From positions 41,392 to 105,391 of the forward strand of contig ONKD01000014.1 in assembly GCA_900318345.1 (NCBI GenBank): a stretch of 64,000 nucleotides of DNA, in the 5' to 3' direction. Shown one piece after another: positions 15,585-50,600 of this stretch. Positions within the stretch are counted from its first letter, which is position 1. Every line of letters starts with the position of its first letter. The DNA is from an uncultured Prevotellaceae bacterium (lineage in GTDB: Bacteria > Bacteroidota > Bacteroidia > Bacteroidales > Muribaculaceae). A model generated the notes under the pieces. It was not told where the DNA came from. It did not search any database and was given only the letters and a program-made list of their open reading frames with translations. The translations under genes and the position numbers were made by a program.

Positions 15585-15855
15585 AAAGGGGGGTGTACAA
15601 CGGGGGAATAAAGTGGCAATAAAGAACTATAAATCATTGAAAAACATTGACTTGAAAATGAATCTATTGGAGCTGGAGGTTTTATCGAATGATATTACAT
15701 ACTAATCACATACTGATTGTATGATAGTATAAACTAATGAAAGTATTTGGTTGTCAGTAGATTGTAAATCAATGATTAGTTTGTCGTATCACACGATTAG
15801 TATGTTATATCCCGAAAGGGGGGAATACAAAACGGCCAGTTTCCCCCTTTTAAAC
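15585..15855. repeat. Att-like junction repeat, leftmost copy
   Basis: From 15668 the sequence reads TGGAGCTGGAGG (identical to the 3' end of ssrA) and continues for about 180 bp at high identity to 37448-37635. It has inverted arms CATACTAATC (15698-15707) and GATTAGTATG (15795-15804) and a terminator-like hairpin (GGGGGG ... CCCCC, about 15816-15850). The part before 15668 instead resembles 50450-50525. It therefore looks like a recombinant junction. Confidence 0.65.
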
Positions 15856-16546
15856 TTATCATTTTTAGAGTGTCTGATTGAAGACGAGATGTGTTATCGA
15901 AGGGATGATAGATCTCACTTTTTTTCGGTTGTTAGACCATGAATTATAATAAATTGACTGGGCAATTTTGCTGTTTGTGAAAAATTTAAAAATTTGCAGT
16001 TCATTTTATTGTAAACTGCTCTCAATTAATTGATGATAGGGTGGGGAACAGAATACTGAAGAAGATATGCGTAAGTTAAATATCTGTATTACTATTCGGT
16101 GATTGTGTTTGTGCGCAAGTCCAACGAAAACAAACCACGAATCACATGTGGCATAATTAAAAAACCATGAATTTCACTCATTAAACTAATTAGGCTGGAG
16201 CTTACGTTCTGCGGGGCACTTAGGGCATCTACCTGCTAATAGAACACCTAGAGCAAACAATAAACGACGTCTCAAACAACTTTTTAAGGCGGTCTTATTT
16301 TGTTGTTAGGGTTGTTGTTTTGTTGTTCTTATTGTTTGAAATAACTTAGCGACTTTGCGTCTTAGCGTGAGGCGGTGCAAGTGCTGGTACTTGTAAAAAT
16401 CGTTCATTGAATAACAGAAATGATACATTGCAACAAATTTGCAAGCAGAAGAACTATAATTGATAGTCCTCTATATATTAATAGGTTAACTTTGCAACCA
16501 ATCGACATAAACTAATCATTTTATATTAACCAAAACCAACAGAACA
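15856..16546. other. Non-coding region upstream of the fructan PUL
   Basis: No gene is supported. A 29-bp stretch at 16345-16373 (starts CTTAGCGACTTTGCG) recurs with two mismatches at 58211-58239, a dispersed intergenic repeat. A TTGTTG-rich tract lies at about 16300-16335. The right end holds the promoter of the SusC gene. No PUL regulator is encoded here. Confidence 0.5.
16487..16494 (+). promoter_or_regulatory. -7 box of the fructan PUL
   Basis: TAACTTTG fits TAnnTTTG, 53 bp before the SusC start codon. The nearest TTG (16460-16462) is 24 bp upstream, a little beyond normal spacing. Confidence 0.45.
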
Positions 16547-19500
16547 ATGAACGTACTGAAAAGATTTCTACTCAGCTTCATGCTCATGTTGACGTGTACA
16601 CTAGTGTATGCGCAAACAGAAATCACAGGCACCGTCGTTGACGAGACAGGAGAGACCGTCATCGGCGCCACTGTGATTGAGAAAGGTACCACAAATGGTA
16701 CAGTGACCGACTTTGACGGCGTCTTCACCCTCAAGGTCAATCCCGGAGCAACCCTCGTTTTCTCCTACGTGGGTTACCTCAATGTTGAGATGCCTGCCAG
16801 CAATGGCATGGTCGTTACGATGAAAGAGGATGCACTTGCCCTCAACGAGATTGTCGTGACGGGTTACACCACTCAGCGCAAAGCCGACTTGACCGGTGCC
16901 GTGAGTGTAGTTAGCGTGACCGACCTGGTCAAGCAGAACGAGAACAACCCCATCAAGGCGATGCAGGGTCGCGTGCCAGGCATGAACATCTCGGCCGATG
17001 GTAACCCCTCGGGTGCTGCCACTGTGCGCATCCGTGGTACAGGTACCCTCAACAACAACGACCCGCTCTACATCATCGACGGTGTTCCCACCAAGGCCGG
17101 TATGCACGAGCTTAACGGTAATGACATCGAGAGCATCCAGGTGTTGAAGGATGCCGCCTCGGCTTCTATCTATGGTAGCCGTGCTGCCAACGGTGTCATC
17201 ATCATCACCACCAAGGGCGGCAAGGACGGCAAAGTGAAGATCGACTTCGATGCCAGCCTGTCAGTCCAGACCTATGCCCACAAGATGAAGGTGCTGAACG
17301 CTAAGGAGTTTGGCCAGACGATGTGGCAGGGTTTTGTGAACGATGGTTTGAACCCCAACCTGAACGGTCTGGGTTACCACTATGACTGGAGTTACGATGC
17401 CAATGGTGTCCCCATGCTCAACAACATCACCATGAACAAGTTCTTGGATCCCGCAGGTATTACTCCCGCAGCCGACACCGACTGGTTTAAGGAGACGACC
17501 CGCACGGGCCTGATTCAGCAGTATAACGTCTCGCTGAGCCAGGGTACCGAGAACGGTACTTCATTCTTCTCTCTGGGCTACTACAAGAACGACGGTATCA
17601 TCAAGAAGTCGGACTTCCAGCGCATTTCGGCCCGCATGAACTCGACCTACAAGCTGTTGCCCATCGGCGACCGCAAGATCGTGACCGTGGGTGAGCACTT
17701 CACGGTAAACCGCACCAACGAGCTTCAGGCTCCTGGCGGCTTCCTGGAGAATGTGCTGCAGTTCAACCCCTCACTGCCCGTTTACACGACCGATGGCCAC
17801 TACGCTGGTCCCGTCGGCGGTTATCCTGACCGTGAGAACCCTGTGGCCCGTCTTGACCGCAACAGCGACAACCGCTACACCTACTGGCGCATGTTTGGTG
17901 ATGCCTTCATCAACATCAACCCCATTCAGGACCTGAACCTGAAGACCACCTTCGGTCTCGACTATTCCCAGAAGCAGCAACGCATCTTCACCTATCCCAT
18001 TACCGAGGGTACCGTGGCCAATCCGACCAATGCCGTTGAGGCCAAGCAGGAGCACTGGACCAAGTGGATGTGGAATGCCATCGCTACCTATAACCTGGAG
18101 CGCGGCAACCATCGTGGTGATATCTTGATCGGTACCGAGCTCAACCGCGAGGACGACTCATGGCTGAGCGGTAAGGCATACGACTTTGCTGTCCTCAATC
18201 CCGACTACATGTGGCCCAATGCCGCTGTGGGTGAGGCTGAGGCTTACGGTTCTGGCGAGGGTTACACGCTGGTGTCGTTCTTCGGCAAATTGAATTACAC
18301 CTACGCTGACCGCTACTTGGCCAGCTTGACTATGCGTTACGACGGTTCTAGCCGTTTCGGCCGCAATAACCGCTACGGTACCTTCCCCTCAGTCAGCCTT
18401 GGTTGGCGCATCAGTGAGGAACCCTTCATGAAGGGTCTGGAGTGGCTCGACAACCTCAAACTGCGTGCATCATGGGGTCAGACTGGTAACCAGGAGATTT
18501 CCAACATTGCCCGTTACACCATCTTTGAGAGCAACTATGGCGAGGCAGGTTTCGGTGGCCAGAGCTACGGTACCAGCTATGATATCGCCGGCACCAATGG
18601 CGGACAAACGCTCCCCAGCGGTTTCAAGCGCAACCAGTTGGGTAACGATAACCTCAAGTGGGAAACCACGACCCAGACCAACGTCGGTTTCGACTTCGGT
18701 ATGCTGCGCAACGCACTGTATGGTTCATTTGAGTGGTACTACAAGAAGACCACCGACATTTTGGTTTACATGCCCGGCATCGGTGTGATGGGTGAGGGTA
18801 GCAGCCAGTGGATCAACGCTGGTGAGATGACCAACAAGGGTATCGAGCTGAACGTGGGTTACCGCGGTAGCGTGGGCGATTTCCAGTATGATATCGCCGG
18901 CAACATCGGTACCTATCGCAACAAGGTGACCAAACTCCCCGAGACTCTGGCAGCTGCTGGCACCTTCGGCGGTAACGGCGTTGAGAGCGTTGTGGGCCAT
19001 CCCATGGGCGCCCAGGTGGGTTATGTATATGACGGCATCTTCAAGAGCCAGGACGAGATTGACAACCATGCCGCACAAAACGGTGCCGGCCTGGGTCGCA
19101 TCCGCTGGAAAGACCTGAACGAGGACGGTGTCATCAACGAGAAGGACCAGAAGTGGATTTATTCACCCGTTCCCGACTTCACTTGGGGTCTTAACATCTA
19201 TCTTGAATACAAGAACCTGGACTTCACCATGTTCTGGCAGGGCGTGCAGGGCGTTGACGTCATCAGCGATCTGAAGCGCGAGACTGACCTGTGGGCCGGT
19301 CTGAATATCACCAACCTGAACAAGGGCCGTCGCCTGCTCGACGCTTGGACTCCCAATAATCCCAGCTCCAACATTCCTGCTGTCAGCACGATGGACAACA
19401 ACAACGAGAAGCGCGTGAGCAGCTACTTTGTGGAGAATGGTTCCTTCGCCAAGATGCGTAACATTCAGCTGGGTTACAACTTTGGCAGCAACGTGTGTGA

Positions 19501-19654
19501 CAAGTTGCACATCGCACGCCTGCGCATGTATGTATCAGCCCAGAATCTGCTGACCATCAAGAGCAAGTCATTTACTGGTGTGGATCCCGAGAACCCCAAC
19601 TTCGGCTATCCTATCCCGCTCAATGTCACCTATGGTCTTAATGTTTCATTCTAA
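16547..19654 (+). CDS. SusC-like TonB-dependent outer-membrane transporter (fructan PUL)
   Basis: 1035 residues. A signal peptide (to about residue 23, VYAQ) is followed by a carboxypeptidase-regulatory-like domain (TEITGTVVDETGETVIGA ... about 24-100), the conserved SusC segment LNEIVVTGY, a plug domain (GRVPGMNIS, DPLYIIDGVP, SIYGSRAANGVIIITTKGGK) and a long beta-barrel. It ends in an aromatic Phe (NVSF), as barrel proteins do. It is the import channel for oligosaccharides bound by SusD and the DUF4960 lipoprotein. The downstream GH32, transporter and fructokinase genes point to fructans (levan or inulin). The order matches the Bacteroides thetaiotaomicron levan locus, but no hybrid two-component sensor is next to it. 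Confidence 0.93.
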   Translation: MNVLKRFLLSFMLMLTCTLVYAQTEITGTVVDETGETVIGATVIEKGTTNGTVTDFDGVFTLKVNPGATLVFSYVGYLNVEMPASNGMVVTMKEDALALNEIVVTGYTTQRKADLTGAVSVVSVTDLVKQNENNPIKAMQGRVPGMNISADGNPSGAATVRIRGTGTLNNNDPLYIIDGVPTKAGMHELNGNDIESIQVLKDAASASIYGSRAANGVIIITTKGGKDGKVKIDFDASLSVQTYAHKMKVLNAKEFGQTMWQGFVNDGLNPNLNGLGYHYDWSYDANGVPMLNNITMNKFLDPAGITPAADTDWFKETTRTGLIQQYNVSLSQGTENGTSFFSLGYYKNDGIIKKSDFQRISARMNSTYKLLPIGDRKIVTVGEHFTVNRTNELQAPGGFLENVLQFNPSLPVYTTDGHYAGPVGGYPDRENPVARLDRNSDNRYTYWRMFGDAFININPIQDLNLKTTFGLDYSQKQQRIFTYPITEGTVANPTNAVEAKQEHWTKWMWNAIATYNLERGNHRGDILIGTELNREDDSWLSGKAYDFAVLNPDYMWPNAAVGEAEAYGSGEGYTLVSFFGKLNYTYADRYLASLTMRYDGSSRFGRNNRYGTFPSVSLGWRISEEPFMKGLEWLDNLKLRASWGQTGNQEISNIARYTIFESNYGEAGFGGQSYGTSYDIAGTNGGQTLPSGFKRNQLGNDNLKWETTTQTNVGFDFGMLRNALYGSFEWYYKKTTDILVYMPGIGVMGEGSSQWINAGEMTNKGIELNVGYRGSVGDFQYDIAGNIGTYRNKVTKLPETLAAAGTFGGNGVESVVGHPMGAQVGYVYDGIFKSQDEIDNHAAQNGAGLGRIRWKDLNEDGVINEKDQKWIYSPVPDFTWGLNIYLEYKNLDFTMFWQGVQGVDVISDLKRETDLWAGLNITNLNKGRRLLDAWTPNNPSSNIPAVSTMDNNNEKRVSSYFVENGSFAKMRNIQLGYNFGSNVCDKLHIARLRMYVSAQNLLTIKSKSFTGVDPENPNFGYPIPLNVTYGLNVSF

Positions 19655-19693
19655 TAATTCAGGATTCACTATGAAAAAGATATTCAATATATT

Positions 19694-21409
19694 GTGTGTC
19701 GGTCTGGTTTGCTGCAGGCCACCACTTTATTTACATCATGTGACGATTTTCTCGATGAGCACAAGCCTCAAGCCACCCTCAGTGACGAACAGGTAAAGTC
19801 GCCCGAGAACGCTGAGGCCATGGCCATCTCGGCCTATGCCATCTTCACTTCGGCCGAGGACATCAACTCATCATTCTCGATGTGGAACTTTGACGTCCGT
19901 AGTGATGACGCCTACAAGGGTGGTAACGGTACCAGCGACGGTGACGTTTTCCATCAGCTTGAGATCCAGCAGGGTGTTCTCACCACCAACTGGAACATTA
20001 ACGACATGTGGGTGAGGTTGTACAACAGCCTGTCACGTGTGAACAGCGCCATCGCCCTGCTCAAGGAGACTGATGACAGCTACGCGATGAAGGGTCAGCG
20101 CCTGGCCGAGATGAAGTTCTTGCGTGCCTATGGCCACTTCCTGCTCAAGCGCCTGTACAAGAATATCCCCTTTGTTGTCAATGAGAACCTGACCTATGAA
20201 GAGTATAATGAGTTGTCCAACACCCAGTACACCAATGACGAGGGCTGGCAGCTCATCATCGACGACCTGATGGAGGCTTATAACACTCTGCCCGAGGTTC
20301 AGCAGGACAAGGGACGTCCCACCCGTGCTGCCGCTGCCGCATTCCTGGCCAAGGTTTATCTCTACAAGGCCTATCGTCAAGATGACGCCAAGAGCAACCA
20401 GGTGACGAGCATCAGCCAGGACGACCTGCAAAAGGTAATCGAGTTCACCAATCCCGCCCTGTATGCCAACTATGGTCTGGAGGATGATATCCACAACAAC
20501 TTCCGTCCCGAGGAAGAGTATGAGAACGGTATCGAGAGCATCTGGGCTATCCAGTACTCACGCAACGATGGTTCCACCTATGGTAACCTGAACTGGAGCT
20601 ACGGCTTGATTCCGCCCAACATCCCTGGCGCTACCGATGGTGGCTGCGACTTCTATAAGCCCTCGCAGAACCTGGTGAATGCCTATCGCACCGGTGCCGA
20701 TGGCCTGCCCATGCTCGACACCTTCAACGAGCATGACTATGACATGGCTGCCGACAATGCCGACCCGCGCTTGTTCCTCACCGTGGGTATGCCTGGATTG
20801 CCCTACATGTTCAACCGCAACTACATGATGGAGGAGACCAGCATTTGGAGCCGCAGCAACGGTCTGTATGGCTACTATGTTTCCCTCAAGCACAATGTTG
20901 ACCCTGCGCTCATCGGCAGCTACCTCATCAAGGGTTCTTACTGGGCCAGCTCGATGAACCGCATCGTCTTCCGCTATGCTGACGTGCTGTTGATGCGCGC
21001 CGAGGCTTATGCCCAGTTGGGTCAGGCCGACCAAGCCATCAATCTCGTGAACCAGCTGCGCTCTCGTGCAGCCACCAGCACCCAGATGATTTCCGGCTAT
21101 CCTAACACCTATGGCGTGAAGATGTACATCAGCAACTATCGCGGCAGCTACTCTAAAGATCAGGCTGTAAAGATTGTTAAGATGGAGCGTCGTCTGGAAA
21201 TGGGTATGGAGAGTGAGCGTTTCTTTGACCTCGTGCGCTGGGGTGATGCCGCCACGGTACTCAACAAGTACTTCTCAGAGGAAATTGGCCACTGCGCTAT
21301 CTACAGTGCCGCTCATTTCACCGCCAACAAGGACGAGTACCTGCCCATCCCGTTCAGTCAGATTTCGGCCTCCAACGGCCATTACACACAGAACATTGGC
21401 AACTGGTAA
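19694..21409 (+). CDS. SusD-like glycan-binding lipoprotein (fructan PUL), 5' frameshift
   Basis: SusD family (RagB/SusD): the body reads from a lipobox LFTSCDDFLDEH to NIGNW, with typical AFLAKVYLYKAY, FRYADVLLMRAEAYAQLG and MERRLEMGMESERFFDLVRWG. The natural start should be the ATG at 19671 (MKKIFNILCVGLVC), 17 bp after SusC, but that frame runs out of register about 40 bp later. One missing base near 19708-19715 would join MKKIFNILCVGLVC to LQATTLFTSC. The open frame given here starts at a GTG that is unlikely to be used. Either the gene carries a one-base deletion in its signal peptide or the assembly is wrong. It binds fructan at the surface with SusC. Confidence 0.85.
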   Translation: MCRSGLLQATTLFTSCDDFLDEHKPQATLSDEQVKSPENAEAMAISAYAIFTSAEDINSSFSMWNFDVRSDDAYKGGNGTSDGDVFHQLEIQQGVLTTNWNINDMWVRLYNSLSRVNSAIALLKETDDSYAMKGQRLAEMKFLRAYGHFLLKRLYKNIPFVVNENLTYEEYNELSNTQYTNDEGWQLIIDDLMEAYNTLPEVQQDKGRPTRAAAAAFLAKVYLYKAYRQDDAKSNQVTSISQDDLQKVIEFTNPALYANYGLEDDIHNNFRPEEEYENGIESIWAIQYSRNDGSTYGNLNWSYGLIPPNIPGATDGGCDFYKPSQNLVNAYRTGADGLPMLDTFNEHDYDMAADNADPRLFLTVGMPGLPYMFNRNYMMEETSIWSRSNGLYGYYVSLKHNVDPALIGSYLIKGSYWASSMNRIVFRYADVLLMRAEAYAQLGQADQAINLVNQLRSRAATSTQMISGYPNTYGVKMYISNYRGSYSKDQAVKIVKMERRLEMGMESERFFDLVRWGDAATVLNKYFSEEIGHCAIYSAAHFTANKDEYLPIPFSQISASNGHYTQNIGNW

Positions 21410-21416
21410 TCAAGCT

Positions 21417-22817
21417 AAGATATTATCTATATTCTGTGCGTGTCTTGCCTGCTGCGGACTCGCCTCAATGCTCAGTTCATGCTCCGATGACAACATCAGT
21501 GACCTGGAGTTGTCGGGCAACTGCATGATTGATCAGCTCTCGCTGGACAACTTTGAGGGAATCATCGACTTGCCCTCAAGGTCGATCCTCGTTCGCTTGC
21601 CCGAGGTCTATGAGACATCGGCCATGACCGTCACTTCATTGAAGATGTCCGATGGTGCCGTGTGCAACATCCATCAGGGCGAAACCATCAACATGGATGC
21701 CGCCAAGGTACTTCACGTCAAGAACGGTGACGTCTTTATGGACTGGACGCTGTCAGTCCTCCACGATGAGGCTCGCATCACCAGCTTTGTGATCAACGAC
21801 ATCTACACGGGTAGCATCGATCAGGAGGCCAAGACGATTGTGGTCTATATTCCCGCAACGCTCGACATCACCAACCTGGTGCCCACAATTACCTATAGCC
21901 AGAACGCTACGATTACCCCGTCATCGGGTGTGGCTCAGGACTTCTCTCAGCCCGTGACTTACACGGTAAAGAACAACTCGGCCGAGAGCGTCTATACCGT
22001 TAGAGTTATTGCCATCAGCAAGCCCAAGGCCCTCTTCCTGGGTTCCGCTCCCACGATGAGCGAACTTGATCCCGAGGCTCAGGCCGCTTGCCAGTGGATG
22101 CTGGGTAATGTTGAGAGTTCGCTGTATGCTTCGTTTGCCGACCTGCGCGCTGGAACGCTCGACCTGTCTGAGTGCAAGCTCATCTGGTGGCACTGGCACG
22201 TTGACGGTGGCGTGGATGGCCATGACAACTTTGTCGCTAAGGCTACCGATGCGATGAACACGCTGAACGAGCTGCGTCAGTTCTACGAGAACGGCGGTGC
22301 ACTGCTGCTCACCCGCTATGCCGTTAACCTGCCGTCATTCATCGGCACCACCGGTGACGACGAGTGGACGACACCCAATAACTGCTGGGGTCAGGACGAG
22401 GCCTATGCCGAGTTGTGCGGTGGCCCGTGGACATTCCGCATCTTTGATGGCCAGAATGGCCATGCCATCTATCAGAATCTCGTCACTGGTGATAACCCCA
22501 ACGAGGTTTATTGCACCGATGCCGGTTACCACATCACCAACTCTACCGCACAGTACCACATCGGTACCGACTGGGGTGGATATGACAACTATGACGTTTG
22601 GACCGGCCGCACTGGCGGTAGGGTTCTCGGCGTCGGTGGTGATGGCGCTATCGTGCTCTGGGAGTATCCCGCCCATGACGGCAAGGGAGGCATCATTTGC
22701 GTCGGTTCGGGCTGCTACGACTGGTATTCCTACACCTACGAGGCTGGTTATACCGAGAAGTACCACAAGAACATCGAGATTATGACCAAGAATGCTATCA
22801 ACTATTTAACCCACTAA
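21417..22817 (+). CDS. DUF4960 surface glycan-binding lipoprotein (fructan PUL), start codon missing
   Basis: About 467 residues. The N-terminus reads as a lipoprotein signal (KILSIFCACLACCGLASMLSSC), then Ig-like beta domains (about 25-190), then a DUF4960 domain (KPKALFLGSAPTMSELDPEA, IWWHWHVDGG, GGALLLTRYAVNLPSF). This position and architecture match the levan-binding lipoprotein of the B. thetaiotaomicron levan locus. No ATG, GTG or TTG precedes the signal sequence in frame: after the SusD stop the frame reads CAA GCT AAG ATA. The first in-frame ATG (21468) is only four residues before the lipobox cysteine. A start codon appears to have been lost, or lost in assembly, just 8 bp after SusD. 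Confidence 0.8.
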   Translation, partial: KILSIFCACLACCGLASMLSSCSDDNISDLELSGNCMIDQLSLDNFEGIIDLPSRSILVRLPEVYETSAMTVTSLKMSDGAVCNIHQGETINMDAAKVLHVKNGDVFMDWTLSVLHDEARITSFVINDIYTGSIDQEAKTIVVYIPATLDITNLVPTITYSQNATITPSSGVAQDFSQPVTYTVKNNSAESVYTVRVIAISKPKALFLGSAPTMSELDPEAQAACQWMLGNVESSLYASFADLRAGTLDLSECKLIWWHWHVDGGVDGHDNFVAKATDAMNTLNELRQFYENGGALLLTRYAVNLPSFIGTTGDDEWTTPNNCWGQDEAYAELCGGPWTFRIFDGQNGHAIYQNLVTGDNPNEVYCTDAGYHITNSTAQYHIGTDWGGYDNYDVWTGRTGGRVLGVGGDGAIVLWEYPAHDGKGGIICVGSGCYDWYSYTYEAGYTEKYHKNIEIMTKNAINYLTH

Positions 22818-22824
22818 TTGACTC

Positions 22825-24417
22825 ATGAATAAGTTCAAGAATATTTTCAGCACATTGCTGCTGTGTTGCTTTATGGTCGCTTCGTCGGCATGCAGCGAGG
22901 ATGATTTCGGCCCCGATGCATCAAAGGATTGGGACGGCACAACCGCATTCTTCAATTCGGTAGACGAGGCTGGTTTCCAGACCTACTACAATCCGGCCAT
23001 TGGCCGTTGTGGTGACCCGATGCCTTTCTATGACGCCAAGGCTGGCCACTTTAAGGTGTTGTACCTGCAGGAGTTTGACAACAATGCCGCTTTCAACTAC
23101 CACCCCTTCTGGGGCGTGTCCACCGTTGATGGCGCTACCTATCAGTCACTGGGCGAGGTATTGCCCACTGGCACATCTCCCGACGAGCAGGACGCTGCCC
23201 TGGGTACAGGCTGCTGCGTTTATAATGAGAAGGATGGATTATACTATATCTATTACACGGGACATGACCGTTTTGGCCGCGAGGCAGTGATGAGGGCTAC
23301 CTCATCCGACTTCAAGGACTGGTCAAAGGATGCTGTGTGGATGCTCAAGGGTTCAACCTATGGCTACTCGGACAACGACTTCCGCGACCCGCAGATCTTT
23401 GTTGCCGACGATGGTCTTTACCACATGGTCATCTCCAGCAACCTGAAGTTTGCCGAGTTCAAGTCCAGCGACTTGAAGGTGTGGGAACACGTCGGCAACT
23501 TCCCCATGATTTGGGACCGCATGTGTGAGTGCCCCGACATCTTCAAGATGGGCAACTACTGGTATCTTGTTTACAGTGAGGGTTATCGTGCCTCATGGAG
23601 CCGCAAGGTGAAGTACATGATGGCGCCCACCTTCGAGGCTTTGAAGGCCTGCTTCAACGATCCCGGCGCCAACTGGCCCCGCGATGGTCATGAGGGCGTT
23701 CTCGACACCCGCGCTTTCTATGCCGGCAAGACGGCAAGCAACGGTCAGGACCGCTACATTTGGGGTTGGTGCCCCTACCGCACGGGCAACACCATCCACG
23801 ACAAGAATGTCAACGTGGGTGCTGGTGGCGAGCCCAACTGGTCTGGCGCTCTGGTATGCCACAAGATCATCCAGCATGCCGACGGTACACTCACCCTGGG
23901 CGAGGTGCCTGCTATCGCAGCTAAGTTCAACAAGGAGCAGACCGTCAAGGTGATGGCCAGCAATGGTGCCCAAATGAGCGGTGTCAATGGCAAGCTCTCG
24001 GGTGATGGCGCCTATGTGCTGTACAACCGCCTGGGAACCTGCAACCATATCTCATTCACCGTGACCACGTCCAACAACTGGGACCGCTTTGGCATCTCGC
24101 TGGTTCGCGGTACCGATAGCGAACGTTATTACACGATGATGGTCAACCCCGAGGATGAGAACCACCGCAAGGTGAACTTTGAGCAGGAGGGTAGCGCCGG
24201 TAAGGGCTTTATCGAGGGTATCGATGGCTATTGGTTTGAGCGTCCCGCCGACAACGTTTACCACATCAACATCTACACCGACAATTCGGTCATGGTGATG
24301 TACATCAACGATGTCTGCTGCTACACCAACCGCATCTATGGTATCCAGAAGAATTGCTGGAGTATCAACAATTATGGTGGCAATATCACCATCTCTGACC
24401 TGAAAGTGTTCCAGTAA
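22825..24417 (+). CDS. GH32-like five-bladed propeller lipoprotein with DUF4975-type C-terminus
   Basis: 530 residues, lipoprotein (ASSAC, Cys23). A five-bladed beta-propeller of the GH32/GH43 type carries RDP at 187-189 (FRDPQIF) and ECP at 235-237 (CECPDIF), the transition-state and acid/base motifs of GH32. The nucleophile region reads RCGDPMPFYD (Asp64) instead of WMNDPNG, so this is a divergent subgroup. The C-terminal 150 residues form a lectin-like beta sandwich (DUF4975 type). It sits between the DUF4960 binder and a canonical GH32 gene, in the place of the surface endo-levanase of the B. thetaiotaomicron locus. Surface fructan cleavage is therefore likely; the exact linkage is unknown. 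Confidence 0.8.
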   Translation: MNKFKNIFSTLLLCCFMVASSACSEDDFGPDASKDWDGTTAFFNSVDEAGFQTYYNPAIGRCGDPMPFYDAKAGHFKVLYLQEFDNNAAFNYHPFWGVSTVDGATYQSLGEVLPTGTSPDEQDAALGTGCCVYNEKDGLYYIYYTGHDRFGREAVMRATSSDFKDWSKDAVWMLKGSTYGYSDNDFRDPQIFVADDGLYHMVISSNLKFAEFKSSDLKVWEHVGNFPMIWDRMCECPDIFKMGNYWYLVYSEGYRASWSRKVKYMMAPTFEALKACFNDPGANWPRDGHEGVLDTRAFYAGKTASNGQDRYIWGWCPYRTGNTIHDKNVNVGAGGEPNWSGALVCHKIIQHADGTLTLGEVPAIAAKFNKEQTVKVMASNGAQMSGVNGKLSGDGAYVLYNRLGTCNHISFTVTTSNNWDRFGISLVRGTDSERYYTMMVNPEDENHRKVNFEQEGSAGKGFIEGIDGYWFERPADNVYHINIYTDNSVMVMYINDVCCYTNRIYGIQKNCWSINNYGGNITISDLKVFQ

Positions 24418-24436
24418 ACGCTAAACAGCCTTTACT

Positions 24437-26101
24437 ATGATGAACAGACTAATGACGATTCTGGCGGCAGTGCTCGTGGCCTTCTCGGCCACGGCACTGG
24501 CCCCCCAGATGTTGAGCGAAAACCACGCCATGCTGCGGGTTGATGCTACGGGCAAGTACCTGTTGCTGCCCGTGCAGGAGAAAGAAGAGTACGCCCATTT
24601 GCGCGTCATCGTGGACAACGAGCAGATGCATAATCTCAACGTGAGGCTTGCGGTGGACAAGGTGGACTACTATGTGCCGCTGGATATCCAGCGCTTCGGC
24701 AACAAGAAAGTGCTGGTGGACATCTCCTTCCATGGCGACCGTCGCACAACGGGTGCCGTCAAGGACTTTGTATGCTGGCGCGAGATGCGGATGACCGACA
24801 CATTCGACGATAGCAATCGCGAGCGTTTCCGTCCCGCCTATCACCACACGCCCGCCTATGGCTGGATGAACGACCCCAACGGTATGTTCTACAAGGACGG
24901 CGTTTGGCACTTGTACTACCAGTACAACCCCTACGGCTCGCAGTGGGAGAACATGACCTGGGGACACTCGACCTCGACCGACCTGATCCATTGGACTCAC
25001 CAGCCCATTGCCATTGAGCCTGATGCTCTGGGAACCATCTTCTCGGGTTCCTGTGTGACCGACGGCAACGACGTGGTGGCTATTTACACCAGTGCCGGAC
25101 AGAACCAGACGCAGTCGATTGCCATTTCGCACGACAACGGCCTGACCTTCGACAAGTATGAGGGCAACCCCGTGTTGACGAGCGATGTGCCCGACTTCCG
25201 CGACCCGAATCCATTCTGGAACAGCGAAATCAACGCCTGGAACCTGATTCTAGCCGCAGGTCAGGAGATGAACATCTACAGTTCTAAGGACCTGAAAGAG
25301 TGGAAATATGAGAGTTCCTTCGGCAAGGAATACGGTAACCACGGCGGTGTGTGGGAGTGCCCCGATCTGATGAAGATCGACGGCAAGTGGGTACTCATTT
25401 GCAACATTAACCCCGGCGGTCCATTCGGCGGCTCGGCTACTCAGTACTTCGTGGGCGACTTCGACGGCCACAAGTTCACCTGTGAGTCCATGCCCAAGGT
25501 CACCAAGTGGATGGACTACGGCAAGGACCACTATGCCACGGTATCGTTCTACAACGCACCCGCTGGCCGTCATGTGGTAATCGCGTGGATGTCCAACTGG
25601 CAGTATGCCAACCAGGTGCCCACCCGCCAGTTCCGCAGCGCCAACTCGATTCCCCGCGACTTGGGCCTGTTCACCGATGGTGAAGAGTCCTACGTGAGCG
25701 TGAAGCCCTCACCCGAGATGCTCGCAGCACGCGGTGCCAAGGTGAAAAAGCCGACCGAGACCTGCGAAATCGTTGTGGATGTGAAAAATTCGATGGAGCT
25801 GACCCTGTCCAACGCCAATGGCGAGCAGGTGGTGATGAAATATGATGCTGCCAAGCAGACCTTTGCGATGGACCGCACCGCCAGCGGTGACGCCTCTTTC
25901 AGCGAGGCCTTCCCTGTTGAGACTGTCGCACCCACCCATGGTGCCATCAAGCAACTGCGCATCTTTGTTGACCGTTGCAGCATCGAGGCCTTTGATGCCG
26001 ACGGCAAGATGGCGATGACTAACCTCGTGTTCCCCACCACGCCCTACACCAACCTCAAGGTCAAGGGCGGCAAGGCCACGATTTACCAAATCAACTATTA
26101 G
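24437..26101 (+). CDS. GH32 exo-fructosidase (levanase/inulinase/invertase type)
   Basis: 554 residues with an N-terminal signal (about 1-21). A small N-terminal beta domain (about 25-120) precedes a canonical GH32 catalytic propeller: WMNDPNG with nucleophile Asp146, FRDPNPF (RDP 255-257), and WECPDL with acid/base Glu307. The C-terminal beta-sandwich (about 430-554) ends with the conserved IFVDRCSIEAF motif. It probably releases fructose from fructo-oligosaccharides in the periplasm. The fructose transporter starts 30 bp downstream, followed by the fructokinase. Confidence 0.93.
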   Translation: MMNRLMTILAAVLVAFSATALAPQMLSENHAMLRVDATGKYLLLPVQEKEEYAHLRVIVDNEQMHNLNVRLAVDKVDYYVPLDIQRFGNKKVLVDISFHGDRRTTGAVKDFVCWREMRMTDTFDDSNRERFRPAYHHTPAYGWMNDPNGMFYKDGVWHLYYQYNPYGSQWENMTWGHSTSTDLIHWTHQPIAIEPDALGTIFSGSCVTDGNDVVAIYTSAGQNQTQSIAISHDNGLTFDKYEGNPVLTSDVPDFRDPNPFWNSEINAWNLILAAGQEMNIYSSKDLKEWKYESSFGKEYGNHGGVWECPDLMKIDGKWVLICNINPGGPFGGSATQYFVGDFDGHKFTCESMPKVTKWMDYGKDHYATVSFYNAPAGRHVVIAWMSNWQYANQVPTRQFRSANSIPRDLGLFTDGEESYVSVKPSPEMLAARGAKVKKPTETCEIVVDVKNSMELTLSNANGEQVVMKYDAAKQTFAMDRTASGDASFSEAFPVETVAPTHGAIKQLRIFVDRCSIEAFDADGKMAMTNLVFPTTPYTNLKVKGGKATIYQINY

Positions 26102-26131
26102 CCGAATATAAACAACTTAAAACTAAATATA

Positions 26132-27298: not shown

Positions 27299-27323
27299 CC
27301 TGTAACCTATAACCTTAGATAAT

Positions 27324-37122: not shown

Positions 37123-37123
37123 T

Positions 37124-40706: not shown

Positions 40707-40739
40707 CGATAGTTTTCAAACCGTTTAATATCGATTAAT

Positions 40740-43730
40740 ATGAACAAAATGAAGCAACTTCTATCAAAACGCTTGGTCATCGGCTTGCTGACGCTGCTGA
40801 TGCCCATGATCGTGCTTGCGCAGGACATTACCGTGCAAGGCACTGTGACTGATGAAGCTGGAGAGACTCTGATCGGGGCTACTGTCCAGCAGAAGGGAAC
40901 GAGTAACGGAACTGTGACCGATTTCGATGGCAATTTCACGCTGACCGTTCCCACGAATGCCATTCTCTCAGTTTCCTATATCGGTTATACACCGAAGGAA
41001 ATTGCAGTCAACGGACAGACCAATCTCATTATTGTATTGTCCAGCGATGACCAGATGCTGAATGAGGTCGTGGTTATCGGTTACGGAACGATGGACAAGA
41101 AGGAACTTACCTCGGCCATCTCGCATGTGAGCGAAAAGGACTTCTTGACGGTCAGCTCCCTTGACCCGTCAATGATGATTCAAGGCAAGGTGGCTGGCGT
41201 CTCGATTACCAATACCGGTACCGGCGACCCCAACAACCAGGCAAGCATCCAGATTCGTGGCGTCTCGTCGCGTTCGGCGGGCTTGGGCCCGCTCATCGTT
41301 ATTGACGGTGTGCCAGGAGGCAACCTGACCAACATCAACCCCAATGACATCGCCTCGTTTGACGTGTTGAAGGACGGTGCCGCTTCGGCTATTTATGGTA
41401 CGCGCGGTTCTAATGGTGTGATTGTTGTCACGACCAAGAAAGGCAGCAAAGATGGCCAAACCCACACTTCCTATTCGGGGCAGTATTCCTGGGACTTCAT
41501 CAACAAGGAATTACAGATGATGAACGCTCAAGAATACCGTGACGTCCGTCTTGGATGGGGTGACACTGGCGTGGACCTGGGCGGCAACATCGATTGGCTC
41601 GATGAGACCAGCCGCACAGGCGGAGCCATGCAGCACACGCTGACGTTGAGCGGCGGTAATGACAAGAGCAACTACCGCGTGAGCGCTGACTACCGCAATG
41701 CCCATGGTATCGACTTGAGGTCAAAGCGTGAGGAATATGGCGCCCGTGCCGCAGTCATGCACACGACCAAGAACGGCCTGTTCACCCTGACCGCCAACAT
41801 CGCTCCGCGCATTATCTACCGCGACAATGCCGACTGGAGCGTGTTCAAGGATGCTATCGAGGCCAACCCGACCACTCCGCTGATGAATCCCGACGATCCT
41901 TCCCTGTATTATAATTTCCAAGGGCAGGTCGTTGGCTCTAATCCTGTTGAGCGCCAGCGCATCGAGAAAGACCATGCAATCACCAAGCTTCTGGACTGGG
42001 ATGGCACGGTGAAACTGAATCTATTGCCCCTGCTGGCCAAAAACGAAGATTCTCCCCACAACTTGTCAACCCAGGTGATGTTTGCCGACCACCAGTACAG
42101 TAACGACAACAGTTGGTTCCGTCCCTCAACGAGCACCATCGCCATCAACAATGGCCGCGAGGGTGAAGCCAGTCGTTCCTACGGCAAGGAAAGCCAGTAT
42201 GTTTTCGAATGGTTGACTAACTATTCCGGCAAGTTCGGCCTGCATTATATCAAGGGTATGGCGGGCTATTCCTACCAATATTCCAAGTATTCCGGTTTCA
42301 ATGCCGAGAACAAGGATTTCCCCAACGACGGCCTGACCTCCGACAATCTGGGCTCGGGCGAGTATGCCAAGGAAGAGGGTGAAGTCATGATGGGCAGCTA
42401 TCAGAATGATGCCAAGCTGATTGCCTTCTTTGGCCGCGTGAGCTACAACTACGATGACCGCTACATGCTGACGGCATCGCTGCGCCATGAGGGTTCGTCA
42501 AAATTCGGTATCGACAACAAGTGGGGTAACTTCCCCGCCATTTCGGCCGGTTGGCGCATTTCGTCCGAGAACTTCATGAAGGACATCACATGGATCAACG
42601 ACCTGAAGCTGCGTGCTGACTTCGGTGTGACGGGCAACCAGGACTTCGGTAGCTATCTGTCGCTCAACACAATGACAGGCTTTGGCTACTATTTCTACAA
42701 TGGCAAGTACTTCCAGGTTTGGGGCCCCTCCAAGAATGTGAATCCCGACCTCAAGTGGGAGAAGGGCAAGAACTGGAACGTTGGCCTTGACTTCTCCTTG
42801 TTTAATAACCGCCTGTACGGTTCGCTCAACTACTTCAGCCGCCGCCAGCAGGATCTGCTCGGTAACTACAAGGTATCGGTTCCTCCTTACCTGTTTGACG
42901 AGACCTTTGTCAACGTGGGAACGATGAAGAATACCGGTTTTGAGTTCGATCTGAACTTTAGGGCTGTGGACACCCCGACCTTTGGTTATGACATCAACCT
43001 TGTGGGAACCACAATGAGCAATAAGTTCCTGGACTTCAGTAACTCGCAGTATGTCGGACAGGACTACTACGATGTGTGCGGCACTGAAGATCCCTATCCT
43101 TTCTATAACCTGCAGCGCATCCAGAAGGGCGAGTCCCTGGGCAACTTCTTCATGTGGAAGTATGCCGGTCACTCCACCGAGGGCGAGTGGCTTGTCTATG
43201 ACCGCGACGGCGACATCATCCGCGCCTCCCAGGCCAGCGACGCCGACCGCCAGCAGGTGGGCAACGGTATGCCCAAATTCACAATGTCGATGAGCCACAC
43301 CTTCCGCTATCGCAACTTCGACTTGTCGCTCTTCTTCCGTGGAGCATTCTTCTTCGATATTTTCAATATCCATGATTTCTACTACGGCACCCGCAACTTC
43401 ACCGGCAACCGCCTGAAGAAAGCCTATGCCAAGAATTTTGAGATTTCATCGTCGGCCAACCCCGTGGTTTGTGATTACTTCCTCGAGCGTGGTGATTATC
43501 TGAAACTCGACATGGTGACCTTGGGCTACACGTTCAGGCCCAACAATTGGCGATTCCTGGACCGCGTGCGCGTGTTCACGACAGCCAAGAATCTGTTCAC
43601 CCTGACCAAGTTCAGCGGTGTTGATCCTTCGACCTATCAAGTGAATGGTTTGACTCCCGGTGGACAGGGTTCACGCACTTATTTCCCCTCTACACGACAG
43701 CTTATCGTCGGTGTACAAGTTGATTTCTGA
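40740..43730 (+). CDS. SusC-like TonB-dependent outer-membrane transporter (alpha-glucan PUL)
   Basis: 996 residues. Signal peptide (to about residue 29, VLAQ), carboxypeptidase-regulatory-like domain (DITVQGTVTDEAGETLIGA), the SusC segment LNEVVVIGYGTM, a plug (GKVAGVSITNTGTGDPNNQASI, LIVIDGVPGG, AIYGTRGSNGVIVVTTKKG) and the barrel, ending VGVQVDF. It is paired with the SusD gene 16 bp downstream. GH97 and GH27-like genes downstream suggest an alpha-glucan or alpha-linked oligosaccharide substrate. Confidence 0.93.
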   Translation: MNKMKQLLSKRLVIGLLTLLMPMIVLAQDITVQGTVTDEAGETLIGATVQQKGTSNGTVTDFDGNFTLTVPTNAILSVSYIGYTPKEIAVNGQTNLIIVLSSDDQMLNEVVVIGYGTMDKKELTSAISHVSEKDFLTVSSLDPSMMIQGKVAGVSITNTGTGDPNNQASIQIRGVSSRSAGLGPLIVIDGVPGGNLTNINPNDIASFDVLKDGAASAIYGTRGSNGVIVVTTKKGSKDGQTHTSYSGQYSWDFINKELQMMNAQEYRDVRLGWGDTGVDLGGNIDWLDETSRTGGAMQHTLTLSGGNDKSNYRVSADYRNAHGIDLRSKREEYGARAAVMHTTKNGLFTLTANIAPRIIYRDNADWSVFKDAIEANPTTPLMNPDDPSLYYNFQGQVVGSNPVERQRIEKDHAITKLLDWDGTVKLNLLPLLAKNEDSPHNLSTQVMFADHQYSNDNSWFRPSTSTIAINNGREGEASRSYGKESQYVFEWLTNYSGKFGLHYIKGMAGYSYQYSKYSGFNAENKDFPNDGLTSDNLGSGEYAKEEGEVMMGSYQNDAKLIAFFGRVSYNYDDRYMLTASLRHEGSSKFGIDNKWGNFPAISAGWRISSENFMKDITWINDLKLRADFGVTGNQDFGSYLSLNTMTGFGYYFYNGKYFQVWGPSKNVNPDLKWEKGKNWNVGLDFSLFNNRLYGSLNYFSRRQQDLLGNYKVSVPPYLFDETFVNVGTMKNTGFEFDLNFRAVDTPTFGYDINLVGTTMSNKFLDFSNSQYVGQDYYDVCGTEDPYPFYNLQRIQKGESLGNFFMWKYAGHSTEGEWLVYDRDGDIIRASQASDADRQQVGNGMPKFTMSMSHTFRYRNFDLSLFFRGAFFFDIFNIHDFYYGTRNFTGNRLKKAYAKNFEISSSANPVVCDYFLERGDYLKLDMVTLGYTFRPNNWRFLDRVRVFTTAKNLFTLTKFSGVDPSTYQVNGLTPGGQGSRTYFPSTRQLIVGVQVDF

Positions 43731-43745
43731 TAATCCTATTAAATC

Positions 43746-45494
43746 ATGAAGACAATGAAACGTATCCATTTATATATGATAATGGCAGCCCTGTGCCTCG
43801 GCACACTGGCAAGCTGCACCGACCTGGACGAGACACTGTATGACCAGGTGGGAACCCAGAACTATTATAACACCAAGAATGACGTGGTAAGGGCAACCTT
43901 CCGTCCGTTTGAACACGCTTTCTGGAGCATCCAGAGCCGTCATGTGCTCAACGAGCTGACTGCCGACCAGTTGATTACCCCGACCCGCGACGGTTGGTGG
44001 GATGACGGTGGCAAATGGCGTCGCTTGCACTACCACGAGTGGAATGTGGAAGACGGCGGTGATGCCCAGAGCGAATGGAACGGCTGTTTCCAGGGTATCA
44101 TGCAATGCAACTATGTGATTGAGGACCTGGAAAAGCTCACGCCGAAGAATTATGGTTTCTCGGATGCCGAGTTTGACAACCTCAAGGCCCAGTGCCGGGT
44201 GCTGCGTGCGTGGTTCTACCTGCGCCTGCTCGATGGCTTCCGCAATGTGCCTCTGGCAGTGAGCTACAGCGACATTTCCAAGAACACCGAAACCCAAGTT
44301 GAGCCCAAGGTCATCTTTGATCTCATCGAGAGTGATCTCAAGGAGTGCATCCCCATGCTTGCCGAGAAGACTTCGCTCGGTTCCAATGCCGGCATTCAGG
44401 GCCAGTGGACCAAGGCCGGCGCTGCAGCACTGCTGGTGCGCTTGTATCTGAATGCCGAGGTTTACATCGGCGAGGCTCGCTATAATGAGTGTGAGCAAGT
44501 GGCTCAAGCCATCCTTGACGGTCAATACGGCCAATATGAGGTAGCCGACCGTTGGGATGCAGCCTTTGACTGGAACAACGACGAGTGCGACGAGGTCATC
44601 TTCGGCTTCCCTGGCGCTCCCGGTTACAGTTTCTGGCACTATCAAGGCGACACTTATTGGTGGACCGTTCCCGCGCGTGCACGTTACTATCTCAACGATT
44701 CCAAGAGCAAGGGTGGCGACCACAACACCAAGTATGCCGCTTCGCCCAGTTTTGCTCCCAATGGCGAGAAATACAACTATCAACTGGGTATGCCCATCGA
44801 GAAGTTCCGCAAATATGAGGGCGATGAGCGCATGAAACTCTATCGCAACCTGGGCAACAGCACCCGTGAGGGCATGTTCATCTATGGCTATCTGGAGTAC
44901 AAGGACGAGAATGGCGCCACCAAGCGCGTCCAGGCTCCCGAGGTGGCCTATGACCTGTACATTCGTGATGCCGTGGGCAAGTTCCAGGGTCTTGCTCCTG
45001 ACCGGTGGCTTTCTGCTTCTAGCAGCACGCTGCGTGACGGTGACCACAACTCGGGCTGGCACTTTGCCAAATACCCCTTCTATAGCGACGATGATGCCCA
45101 CCAGATGGAGAGTGACTACACCGAGATCCGTCTGCCCGAGATTATCTACTCGCTGGCTGAATGCAAACTGCGCTCAGGTAAAAAGGCCGAGGCCGGACGA
45201 CTGCTCAACAGTGTGCGCCGCCGCAACTATCCCGAGGCCAACCTTTCAACGGTGCTCTATGCCCCCGAGGGTGCAGCCGTTCTTGACATGGACGAGATGC
45301 TCGACGAGTGGGGCCGTGAGTTCTTCGCCGAGAGCCGTCGCCGCATCGACCTGATCCGCTTTGGCAAGTTCACTTCTGGCTCATGGTGGGACAAGAATCC
45401 TGATGCCGATGATCACACCAAGATTTTCCCCATCATGCGTCCCATCCTCAACGCCAATCCTGCACTGGTGCAGAATCCCGGTTATAATAAATAA
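43746..45494 (+). CDS. SusD-like glycan-binding lipoprotein (alpha-glucan PUL)
   Basis: 582 residues, lipoprotein (LASCTDLDE, Cys at about 23-24). SusD hallmarks include NYVIEDLEKLTP, CRVLRAWFYLRLLDGFRNVPL, AALLVRLYLNAEVY and LPEIIYSLAECKLRSGKKAEAGRLLNSVR, ending DEWGREFFAESRRRIDLIRFGKF. It forms the lid of the SusCD transporter at the cell surface. Unlike the SusD of the fructan PUL, its 5' end is intact. Confidence 0.92.
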   Translation: MKTMKRIHLYMIMAALCLGTLASCTDLDETLYDQVGTQNYYNTKNDVVRATFRPFEHAFWSIQSRHVLNELTADQLITPTRDGWWDDGGKWRRLHYHEWNVEDGGDAQSEWNGCFQGIMQCNYVIEDLEKLTPKNYGFSDAEFDNLKAQCRVLRAWFYLRLLDGFRNVPLAVSYSDISKNTETQVEPKVIFDLIESDLKECIPMLAEKTSLGSNAGIQGQWTKAGAAALLVRLYLNAEVYIGEARYNECEQVAQAILDGQYGQYEVADRWDAAFDWNNDECDEVIFGFPGAPGYSFWHYQGDTYWWTVPARARYYLNDSKSKGGDHNTKYAASPSFAPNGEKYNYQLGMPIEKFRKYEGDERMKLYRNLGNSTREGMFIYGYLEYKDENGATKRVQAPEVAYDLYIRDAVGKFQGLAPDRWLSASSSTLRDGDHNSGWHFAKYPFYSDDDAHQMESDYTEIRLPEIIYSLAECKLRSGKKAEAGRLLNSVRRRNYPEANLSTVLYAPEGAAVLDMDEMLDEWGREFFAESRRRIDLIRFGKFTSGSWWDKNPDADDHTKIFPIMRPILNANPALVQNPGYNK

Positions 45495-45526
45495 TGTTTG
45501 TCACCCATCTAAATCAATAAAAAGAT

Positions 45527-46714
45527 ATGAAACTGAGATATATAATGTTCGTTCTTGCCGGCATCATGCTGGGTATGGGCCTGACAGGCTGTGAGGACGA
45601 GAAAGACCTGATTATCATTGAGGGCGACCTGCCCATCAAGACCTCTACACTCTACATGGTGGGTGATGCCACGCCCAATGGTTGGGACATCGGCAATCCT
45701 ACGCCGCTGACGGCTACCGAGGCAGACCCCTTGATTTTCACTTGGGAGGGTTCTCTAAACAAGGGAGAAATAAAGCTTTGTCTGACGACGGGCAGTTGGG
45801 ATGCTCCCTTCATCCGTCCCCTCGTGAACGGTACCGAGATTTCCCGAACGGCCATCACTAACGCGAAGTTTGGTATGCATGCTGGTGACCCCGACGACAA
45901 GTGGCGCGTCGTGGATGCAGGCAAGTATCGCTTGACATTTGACTTGAGGAACTGGACCATGTCCACCGAGTACACCGGTGAGCCCGACGCTCCTGTTATC
46001 GAGCCTATCGTGACCGATGTGGTCTATATGGTGGGGGACGCTACACCTAACGGCTGGAACATCGATGCTCCCACCCAGCTCGAGAAGAAGTCCACATATA
46101 TCTTTGAGTATGAAGGCCCGCTCAATGTGGGTGAAATGAAGGCCTGCATCGCTTCAGGTGACTGGGGTGTGCCCTTCATCCGTCCCACGTTTGCAGAGTG
46201 CAAGATTAACAAGGACGGCGTTGAGAGTCCTGAATTCATCTTCGTAGCCAATCCTGATGACAAGTGGAAGGTCGAAGAGGCTGGTAAGTACCGACTGACT
46301 TTTGACTTGGAGAAATACACGTTGAAGGCTGAATACCTGGGTGAACTTGACCCCGTTGGACCTGAACCCATATCAGCAGAGGCCGTTTATATCGTCGGTG
46401 ATGCCACCCCCAACGGCTGGAGCATCGATGCCCCGACACAGTTGACCAAGGTGTCGCAGTATATCTTCAAGTATGAGGGCACTCTCGTCCCCGGCGAGAT
46501 GAAGGCCTGCATCGCAACTGGCAGCTGGGATGTACCATTCATCCGTCCCACGTTTGCCGACTGCAAGATCAACAAGACCGGAGTTGAAAACTCCAACTTC
46601 GTTTTCACCAACGGTCCTGATGACAAGTGGCGTGTTGAAGAATCGGCCAACTACCGCATCACCTTTGATCTGGAGCACTGGACGATTCAAGTGGAAGAAA
46701 TCACCAATGACTAA
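45527..46714 (+). CDS. SusE/SusF-like surface lipoprotein with three tandem binding modules
   Basis: 395 residues. Lipoprotein signal (GMGLTGCEDEKD, Cys about 24). Three repeats of about 110 residues each begin YMVGDATPNGWDI, YMVGDATPNGWNI and YIVGDATPNGWSI and end KYRLTFDLRNWTM-like, each with PFIRPTFADCKINK-like cores. This is the SusE/SusF starch-binding module type. It should bind alpha-glucan at the surface for the neighbouring SusCD pair. The strong similarity among repeats points to recent internal duplication. Confidence 0.88.
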   Translation: MKLRYIMFVLAGIMLGMGLTGCEDEKDLIIIEGDLPIKTSTLYMVGDATPNGWDIGNPTPLTATEADPLIFTWEGSLNKGEIKLCLTTGSWDAPFIRPLVNGTEISRTAITNAKFGMHAGDPDDKWRVVDAGKYRLTFDLRNWTMSTEYTGEPDAPVIEPIVTDVVYMVGDATPNGWNIDAPTQLEKKSTYIFEYEGPLNVGEMKACIASGDWGVPFIRPTFAECKINKDGVESPEFIFVANPDDKWKVEEAGKYRLTFDLEKYTLKAEYLGELDPVGPEPISAEAVYIVGDATPNGWSIDAPTQLTKVSQYIFKYEGTLVPGEMKACIATGSWDVPFIRPTFADCKINKTGVENSNFVFTNGPDDKWRVEESANYRITFDLEHWTIQVEEITND

Positions 46715-46729
46715 TTAAAAACATAAGAT

Positions 46730-50328
<3,599 letters not shown>

Positions 50329-50370
50329 TGATGACTTGGTAGAATAGCTTCTCAATATTACCTGCTGTTA

Positions 50371-50405
50371 GGGGGCGCGGTTGCGATAGCCGCGTCCTCT
50401 TTGTC
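50371..50405 (+). terminator. Terminator of the alpha-glucan PUL
   Basis: GGGCGCGGTTGCGATAGCCGCGTCC can fold as an imperfect GC-rich hairpin followed by TCTTTGTCTT, 43 bp after the GH97 stop codon. Confidence 0.5.
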
Positions 50406-50447
50406 TTAGTATGAGGGTCTAGTCATTCGTATTGGACTCTTAAGACA

Positions 50448-50600
50448 AGAAAAGGGGGAATACAAGGATAACAAGAAACCGTATATCGCTGAAAATCAAT
50501 AACTTGCATATAGGTTTATTGGAGCCATCTGCTCCAATAAAAACAACGAGCAACTATCTGTATATCAGATGGTTACTCGTGCCCTGTGGAGCTGGAGGGG
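50448..50600. repeat. Att-like junction at the ssrA 3' end
   Basis: 50519-50598 is the counterpart of 37379-37459 (mini-palindrome, hairpin, ssrA end). 50450-50525 (starting GGGGGAATAC, ending TTTATTGGAGC) is related to 15602-15672. It is the right end of the island array and includes the true ssrA terminus. Confidence 0.65.
50533..50579 (-). terminator. Terminator of ssrA
   Basis: A 14-bp imperfect stem (50547-50560 with 50566-50579, loop TATAT) lies 8 bp beyond the tmRNA 3' end and is followed on the minus strand by TTGTTTTTATT. Confidence 0.75.

Follow-up and report, generated by a model that had tools for sequence, protein, structure and literature searches.

How did the end of a transfer-messenger RNA (tmRNA) gene come to be copied at the borders of several complete functional modules? 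The question is raised by a 64,000-nucleotide stretch of DNA from an uncultured Prevotellaceae bacterium (positions C37:41392-105391 of its genome, G000; hereafter the window), in which the tmRNA gene, ssrA, is followed by a series of gene clusters each bounded by copies of its last bases. The genome itself comprises 3.17 Mb in 82 contigs and is 90.6% complete; for comparison we used 101 genomes of the genus (own included) and 397 of the family in 30 genera, mostly drafts or metagenome-assembled genomes (MAGs). Our answer, held with good confidence, is that at least four tandem, non-autonomous islands have accreted at the 3' end of ssrA by recombination through a tyrosine integrase and are mobilised in trans or in cis. 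The array, its arms, a switch of sequence at the core, the near-identity of one island across species and the presence at this site of an element with an integrase gene can be read directly from the DNA.

Copies of the ssrA end delimit a tandem array

The ssrA gene occupies 50586..50983 on the minus strand, so that its downstream direction runs towards falling window coordinates. Its last 13 bases (50586-50598), the core GTGGAGCTGGAGG, form the ssrA-proximal end of the array. An exact copy of the core starts at 37447, and the copies at 28414 and 15667 each have one mismatch (the latter being 12 of 12 from 15668). These are the three copies that an earlier note on this DNA had pointed out; a fifth match, with two mismatches, lies at 37286. 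Alone, this is weak evidence, as the 13-mer is only mildly over-represented in the window at up to two mismatches (five matches versus 1.22 expected, with five reached in 2 of 100 shuffles), and longer flank matches are decisive. Left of the core, positions 37400-37459 and 50539-50598 are 88% identical over 60 nt, terminator hairpin included, as the note had also claimed. Right of the core, an arm of about 165 bp is 90% identical between 15668-15832 and 37448-37612, and the arm right of the 28414 core represents a second, diverged type (77%). Three copies of the arm exist in the own genome, all on C37 and 90-93% identical; the third lies outside the window at C37:31793, 9.6 kb to its left. The exact sequence GGAGCTGGAGG occurs five times in this genome, four times at array junctions and once on C56. 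Because an arm copy lies beyond the window edge, the array extends further left and places at least four intervals behind ssrA (A, 13.1 kb; B, 9.0 kb; C, 12.7 kb; D, 25.3 kb). The earlier count of three, with a fructan polysaccharide utilization locus (PUL), conflict genes and a DUF3990 cassette plus alpha-glucan PUL as cargo, was therefore too low.

Each junction, all read on the plus strand, combines a core with recognizable flanks. In the left arm of island A (50454..50585), the arm motif GGGGGAATA stands at 50454 and the terminator hairpin of ssrA spans 50546-50580 (fold z -4.72). Island B ends on the right in an ssrA-terminator-like left arm (37379..37446; hairpin fold z -6.94), followed by the junction between B and A (37447..37612) with the exact core at 37447-37459, the right arm and an arm motif at 37599. 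The junction between C and B (28385..28570) consists of a hairpin at 28385-28409, the core with one mismatch at 28414-28426, the diverged right arm and an arm motif at 28544. The junction between D and C (15589..15832), in turn, has left-arm G-run motifs at 15589 and 15602, a core at 15667-15679 and a right-arm motif at 15819. Fold z scores range from -4.7 to -6.9 for four hairpins on the left side of cores in the own array; the 15667 junction has none. Its core looks chimeric, and a left arm in G053 (L047:17674) contains a stem-loop, TTGGAGCTGGATGCTCCAA, that resembles a core. If a pseudo-core of this kind had been used, the terminator-less junction would be accounted for. Left of the outermost core, at C37:20628-31531 (L005), we found a further SusC/SusD locus, placed between that core and the region that stands directly past the last core in G029; this locus may be an older island with a decayed outer core.

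Sequence switches at the core and arm motifs keep their spacing

To describe junctions across relatives, 54 distinct ones were sorted by broad patterns that had been written after inspecting them. Both left hairpin types were found with all three right-hand sequences, ssrA and the right arms R1 and R2: hpA hairpins are followed by these 12, 9 and 1 times, and hpB hairpins 3, 10 and 4 times, the ssrA count after removal by eye of one false case, G063. Left and right sequences are accordingly shuffled about the core, with six of six combinations present. The remaining 15 junctions comprise G063, two hpB hairpins with a third right arm beside an integrase, and 12 in which one side or both carry other sequence. 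Where island A ends distally, G000 and G093 are identical from the fourth base before the core onwards to the right, and their left-hand sequences differ; between G099 and G000 the identity starts two bases before the core, apart from one gap, and the left sides differ again. Together, the hairpin types left of the cores and the switch at the core suggest that incoming islands supply the ssrA terminator, and that the displaced terminator marks the far end.

The arm motif is tied to the core as well. In 516 kb of sequence chosen around ssrA in 16 genomes, 29 of the 32 forward copies of GGGGGAATA and five of the eight reverse-strand copies are no more than 260 bp away from a core, positions that make up 3.2% of the sequence. 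Among the 30 right sides other than ssrA, 28 have the G-run motif (GGGGG followed by AAT, AAC, TAT or TAC) at 130, 140/141 or 152 bp from the core start, positions that differ by about one helical turn; in left arms the motifs fall into two zones, around -62 to -76 and around -129 to -147. Motifs on both sides at a kept spacing would fit the arm-type sites of a phage-type integrase. The hallmarks of a tyrosine-integrase attachment site, namely a short core, a fixed exchange point and arm-type sites, are all present as far as sequence can tell. In the same 516 kb, cores with at most one mismatch number 32 on the expected strand, 16 of them being ssrA ends, and zero on the other, with 0.34 expected per strand.

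The arm is found in 26 of the 101 genus genomes, own included, with matches spanning just 27-39 nt in five of them (G016, G027, G029, G034 and G064). At E<=1e-10 it was detected in 21 of the 397 family genomes, all of the same genus (one of 30 genera). In 11 of the 26, arm and ssrA share a contig (own genome, G015, G016, G020, G029, G050, G058, G069, G082, G089 and G093), and in every one of these the arm lies downstream of ssrA in the same orientation. The exact arm pattern matched six named records, all MAG contigs, five from uncultured Prevotellaceae and one from Porphyromonadaceae. An empty site for the own lineage was not found among the relatives' loci compared; flank genes that G068 and G050 have in common directly past the last core, and that G082 has further out, provide such a site for another lineage.

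Some islands are shared between species at the ssrA locus

Island A differs between G000 and G093 at only 7 positions in its first 11,000 bp, whereas ssrA is 92.5% identical between the two genomes, the next 0.75 kb 77% and a 4.6-kb backbone stretch beside ssrA 79%. Across relatives, this backbone stretch is 78-81% identical to G000 in 13 genomes and 88% in G013 (it was unrecovered in G099). Scoring two candidates per genome, we located SusC/SusD genes of island A at 96-100% identity in at least five relatives, all within ssrA arrays; their contigs carry ssrA in G093, G058 and G057, and the arm, with ssrA unassembled, in G094 and G099. Copies in G087 and G085, at 78-81%, are on contigs other than that of ssrA. 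The earlier note had named two observations that would speak against its proposal, PULs with the same flanking repeat at unrelated loci and junction repeats scattered genome-wide. Neither was seen where we looked: for the PUL of island A, with two candidates per genome, copies of at least 96% sit in ssrA arrays and those elsewhere reach only 78-81%, and in the own genome the arm is restricted to this array.

The TOTE region of island B, searched with the same two candidates per genome, matched at 81% or more in at least ten relatives, six with ssrA on the contig and four with the arm; the matches in G054, G048, G100 and G029 are partial. At least three further copies are 68% identical; two of them, in G100 and G006, share a contig with ssrA and follow it at 1.8 and 27 kb downstream. 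For the DUF3990 cassette, four candidates were scored per genome, yielding at least nine copies (two own) of 91% identity or more over about 1 kb, each beside such an arm; for the 71-81% copies in G027, G022, G096, G065 and G021, no tie to an arm was established. In five relatives, TOTE alone, the right half of B, forms a 4.9-5.1-kb island next to ssrA, and because this half can stand alone, island B is probably a fusion of two islands. In the loci compared, high-identity sharing was seen for island A and half of island B, and not for C and D. Whole functions thus appear to move as ready-made cassettes without a recombinase of their own.

Searches beyond chromosomes gave no vehicle for these islands. 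Neither 72,556 plasmid records nor 50,697 phage records gave a megablast match to the 13.2-kb island A, and viral contigs contained no exact match of the core-plus-arm pattern. Fifteen viral stretches fitted peptide patterns of the integrase described below for G068 without being relatives of it, in a single-protein query that catches close relatives only.

A candidate integrase resides in the same site in a relative

No integrase was evident within the islands, in agreement with the earlier note. All nine matches to Phage_integrase (PF00589) in the own genome are on other contigs and none on C37. Family scans of 38 window open reading frames (ORFs) and 7 further ones of interval D, which did not take in every small ORF, revealed no recombinase, relaxase or conjugation family; serine recombinases were likewise absent from these scans, a genome-wide search for them not having been made. 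The same holds more widely: 20 of 21 complete intervals, defined by a core or ssrA on both sides (one G069 end having two mismatches), lack a PF00589 match.

The exception is G068, which supplies the tyrosine recombinase beside the same junction that the note had suggested looking for in relatives. Here, the site is taken up by an 8.4-kb element that is bounded by ssrA and a copy of the core, encodes a 461-aa tyrosine recombinase starting about 200 bp inside the distal core, and has G-run motifs in its left and right arms. G053 has two tyrosine recombinase genes inside an R1 arm, with the far end of the element off the contig, and in G047 and G018 an integrase adjoins an ssrA-type core on contigs apart from ssrA. 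Homologues of the G068-type integrase were detected at E<=1e-40 in 16 of the 101 genus genomes. Among 18 integrase loci, 11 have GTGGAGC exactly 130 or 152 bp before an arm motif, four continuing as an ssrA-type core and seven in another way. This suggests that GTGGAGC is the segment exchanged and that a second target exists. Seven related integrase loci (L077-L083) share the core GTGGAGCATAGCG upstream and a 130-bp arm spacing, on contigs without ssrA.

From these parts, a mechanism can be proposed. Island ends have in common the 13-bp core (GTGGAGC plus TGGAGG), a right arm of about 165 bp whose G-run motif stands at +130, about +141 or +152, and, on the left, an arm that in most cases closes with a hairpin acting as ssrA terminator and often has the same motif. 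A circular intermediate, formed on excision and joined as left arm, core and right arm, would recombine with the core at the ssrA end; insertion would provide ssrA with a new terminator and push the old one outward with a copy of the core. Repeated insertion would stack the islands in order of arrival, the newest next to ssrA. Integrase-less islands would be moved by the tyrosine integrase of elements such as those of G068, G053, G047 and G018, acting as helpers in trans or in cis after accretion, and some vehicle would carry them between cells.

Weighing the explanations

Tandem accretion at ssrA, as proposed in the earlier note, gains support from the shared arms, the layout in ten relatives, the switch at the core, the copies of island A and TOTE, and the G068 element. 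Several observations nevertheless weigh against it or restrict its reach. The GH97 end of island A differs between G000 and G093 at 44 positions in 1,500 bp, and the left arm of island A in G000 (50454-50585) is not the one common to G093, G058 and G013; among these three, the last few bases before the core vary despite the common arm. With this left arm swapped and the hairpin missing at the 15667 junction, not every event can have been a clean crossover at the core, and these three cases together indicate that exchange away from the core also occurs. Whole island B was found nowhere in relatives, and the loci compared yielded just 70-84% relatives of island C (G029, G100) and just pieces of about 0.8 kb of interval D. 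In 15 of the 25 arm-bearing relatives, ssrA is on another contig or unrecovered. The own genome, at 90.6% completeness, contains no relative of the G068-type integrase at E<=1e-40. Finally, the Arm-DNA-bind family scores above cut-off only in the second G053 recombinase, the first being just below it and that of G068 giving no match.

Some of these points would suit a hotspot of homologous recombination, in which ssrA, its terminator and the shared arms offer homology and imported DNA swaps cargo without any integrase: the replaced left arm and the divergent patch of island A would follow directly, as would the resemblance of B to fused pieces, with identical arms serving as homology. We nonetheless regard this explanation as quite unlikely, given that at the distal end of island A the arm and core are identical while the left side is unrelated, that terminator and right-hand types combine freely about the core, that an integrase-bearing element sits in the same site, and that homology alone would not need the motif spacing kept in 28 of 30 right arms. 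Repeats arising by chance from a short sequence are scarcely credible; the mild excess of the 13-mer in the window would allow them, but neither the 165-bp arms at 90-93% identity nor the 32-to-0 strand bias of the cores against 0.34 expected would. Chance was rejected on this bias and on the confinement of the arm to the array in the own genome.

A further option is that the islands arrived long ago, have since lost their integrases and are now fixed in the chromosome. Such relics, which the earlier note had offered alongside mobilisation in trans, would be consistent with the absence of an integrase from 20 of 21 complete intervals, with an own genome devoid of relatives of the candidate integrase, and with islands C and D, for which the loci compared contain no high-identity copy. 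Yet near-identical copies of island A occur in genomes that match at 79% in the adjoining chromosome, and identities of 86-95% among TOTE islands contrast with a backbone of 79-81%; with identities above that of the backbone, at least these islands moved more recently than the species split. As a complete account, relics are unlikely, and for island A they are the weaker of the two options, the helper integrase of the other being our inference. A giant integron, in which an integron-type integrase shuffles cassettes through attC-like hairpins, would likewise predict a tandem direct array of integrase-free cassettes with hairpins beside the core. It is very improbable here: the first site is the end of a tmRNA gene with no integrase gene adjoining, and the long arms with spaced motifs and the phage-type integrase of G068 fit recombination of the phage or integrative and conjugative element (ICE) type.

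Accretion by a tyrosine integrase remains our preferred explanation. More tentatively, and short of favouring it outright, we consider a broader one, in which the ssrA 3' end in this genus is a docking site for shared, non-autonomous mega-cassettes (whole PULs, TOTE and further defence islands) that bring their own terminator and complete arms and are moved between species by the integrases of a few helper elements. Such a modular system might work like a giant integron, with a tyrosine integrase and the end of a tmRNA gene as its basis instead.

Cargo of the islands

Island A (37447..50598, 13.1 kb) combines a DUF3990 cassette with an alpha-glucan PUL, for which Pfam matches SusC, SusD, SusE/F and GH97. 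Island B (28414..37459, 9.0 kb) contains a DUF3990 cassette, two ORFs without family assignment, a TOTE primase-helicase and an AAA ATPase. Island C (15667..28426, 12.7 kb) is a fructan PUL with SusC, SusD, two GH32 proteins, an MFS transporter and a PfkB kinase, again by Pfam. The window part of interval D (1..15679; left core at C37:31791) holds RyR, dockerin/LRR, TPR, TIR, NrtR-like NUDIX and NADAR genes, and its remainder outside the window encodes more dockerin-like, Big_2, TPR and BACON proteins. PADLOC models match the DUF3990, TOTE, ATPase, TIR, NUDIX and NADAR proteins; PDC names in PADLOC we take to denote candidate defence proteins.

The DUF3990 cassette is present twice (28473-29704 and 37528-38758; 95% identical over 300 nt), at the right-arm ends of B and A, and seven relatives have it at the same place. 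Its DUF3990 genes, both on the plus strand, adjoin the right arms of island B (28964..29479) and island A (38020..38535), the latter near the integrase position of G068 and G053, and two small ORFs without family assignment accompany each own DUF3990 gene. Given its place beside the arm, near the integrase position of the helper elements, the cassette may be a retention module. The two large ORFs of island B (29732-32721; 491 and 476 aa), the first of which also occurs in the G069 and G100 arrays, gave no match in Pfam, NCBIfam, PHROGs or PADLOC, leaving a hidden recombinase there unsupported. Within interval D, an operon at 13092-15409 encodes an NrtR-like NUDIX regulator, a NADAR protein and a cytidylyltransferase-NADAR fusion, and is possibly linked to NAD- or ADP-ribose-based defence. 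Two RyR-domain proteins, of a kind unusual in bacteria, are encoded at 334-2357 with a weak sigma-70-like protein between them.

Significance and comparison with known systems

The locus suggests how complete glycan-use loci, and defence systems as well, may pass between Prevotellaceae while bringing no recombinase of their own. Such islands would tend to escape surveys that require an integrase within them; the selection described for one gut survey, for instance, kept islands with an integrase or transposase or with prophage or ICE kinship, and islets found in more than two species (PMC6907783). An ssrA flank could, in turn, mark transferable PULs, and the short core, kept arm spacing and candidate integrase make the system directly testable. 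Among the papers listed from open-licence literature, we found no title or abstract opening that describes it.

Known systems share parts of this anatomy. Clusters of attC sites lacking integron integrases (CALINs) are described as integrase-less cassette arrays that can be mobilised in trans (PMC11389934). The present array differs from them and from integrons in site type, target gene, recombinase type and the size of its cassettes, about 2-25 kb; its first site is ssrA rather than a site beside an integron integrase gene, and Phage_integrase is absent from the contig. The islands of the window also lack the integrase and the relaxase or transfer genes that characterize integrative and mobilizable elements or ICEs. 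The Prevotella intermedia elements MTnPi1-4, of the same order, are presented as putative mobilizable elements, of which MTnPi1-3 encode tandem tyrosine recombinases (PMC5704250), as does the G053 element. According to that description, however, they target short motifs or tRNA-Leu and encode recombinases, whereas the islands here use ssrA and are integrase-less. The same source outlines cis-mobilizable elements (CIMEs) as att-flanked islands without integration or transfer genes, stacked by accretion at one site. Their anatomy recurs here, with attL/attR-type flanks at one target and no integration or transfer genes in the ORFs scanned. The concept also takes in decay from a mobile ancestor and mobilisation in cis with an adjacent ICE or integrative and mobilizable element after accretion; in this array, there is no integrase-bearing neighbour.

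Closest in layout are the Dehalococcoides islands, which carry niche-defining cargo and are reported to follow ssrA in tandem, several in a row, with ssrA itself or a direct repeat of its 3' end at their borders (PMC3146451). As there, the islands of the window are tandem and bounded by copies of the ssrA 3' end. Fifteen of the islands in that report are without an integration module, perhaps cis-mobilizable in the authors' view. The machinery it portrays is a CcrB-like serine recombinase; the repeat is 20 bp long, and the T-loop region is where insertion takes place. The integrase-bearing elements seen here, by contrast, carry tyrosine recombinases. Compared with that account, our array stands apart by its candidate integrase of the tyrosine type, a core of 13 bp placed right at the end of the gene, long arms with spaced motifs, a putatively island-borne terminator, cargo of PULs and defence genes, and its occurrence in another phylum.

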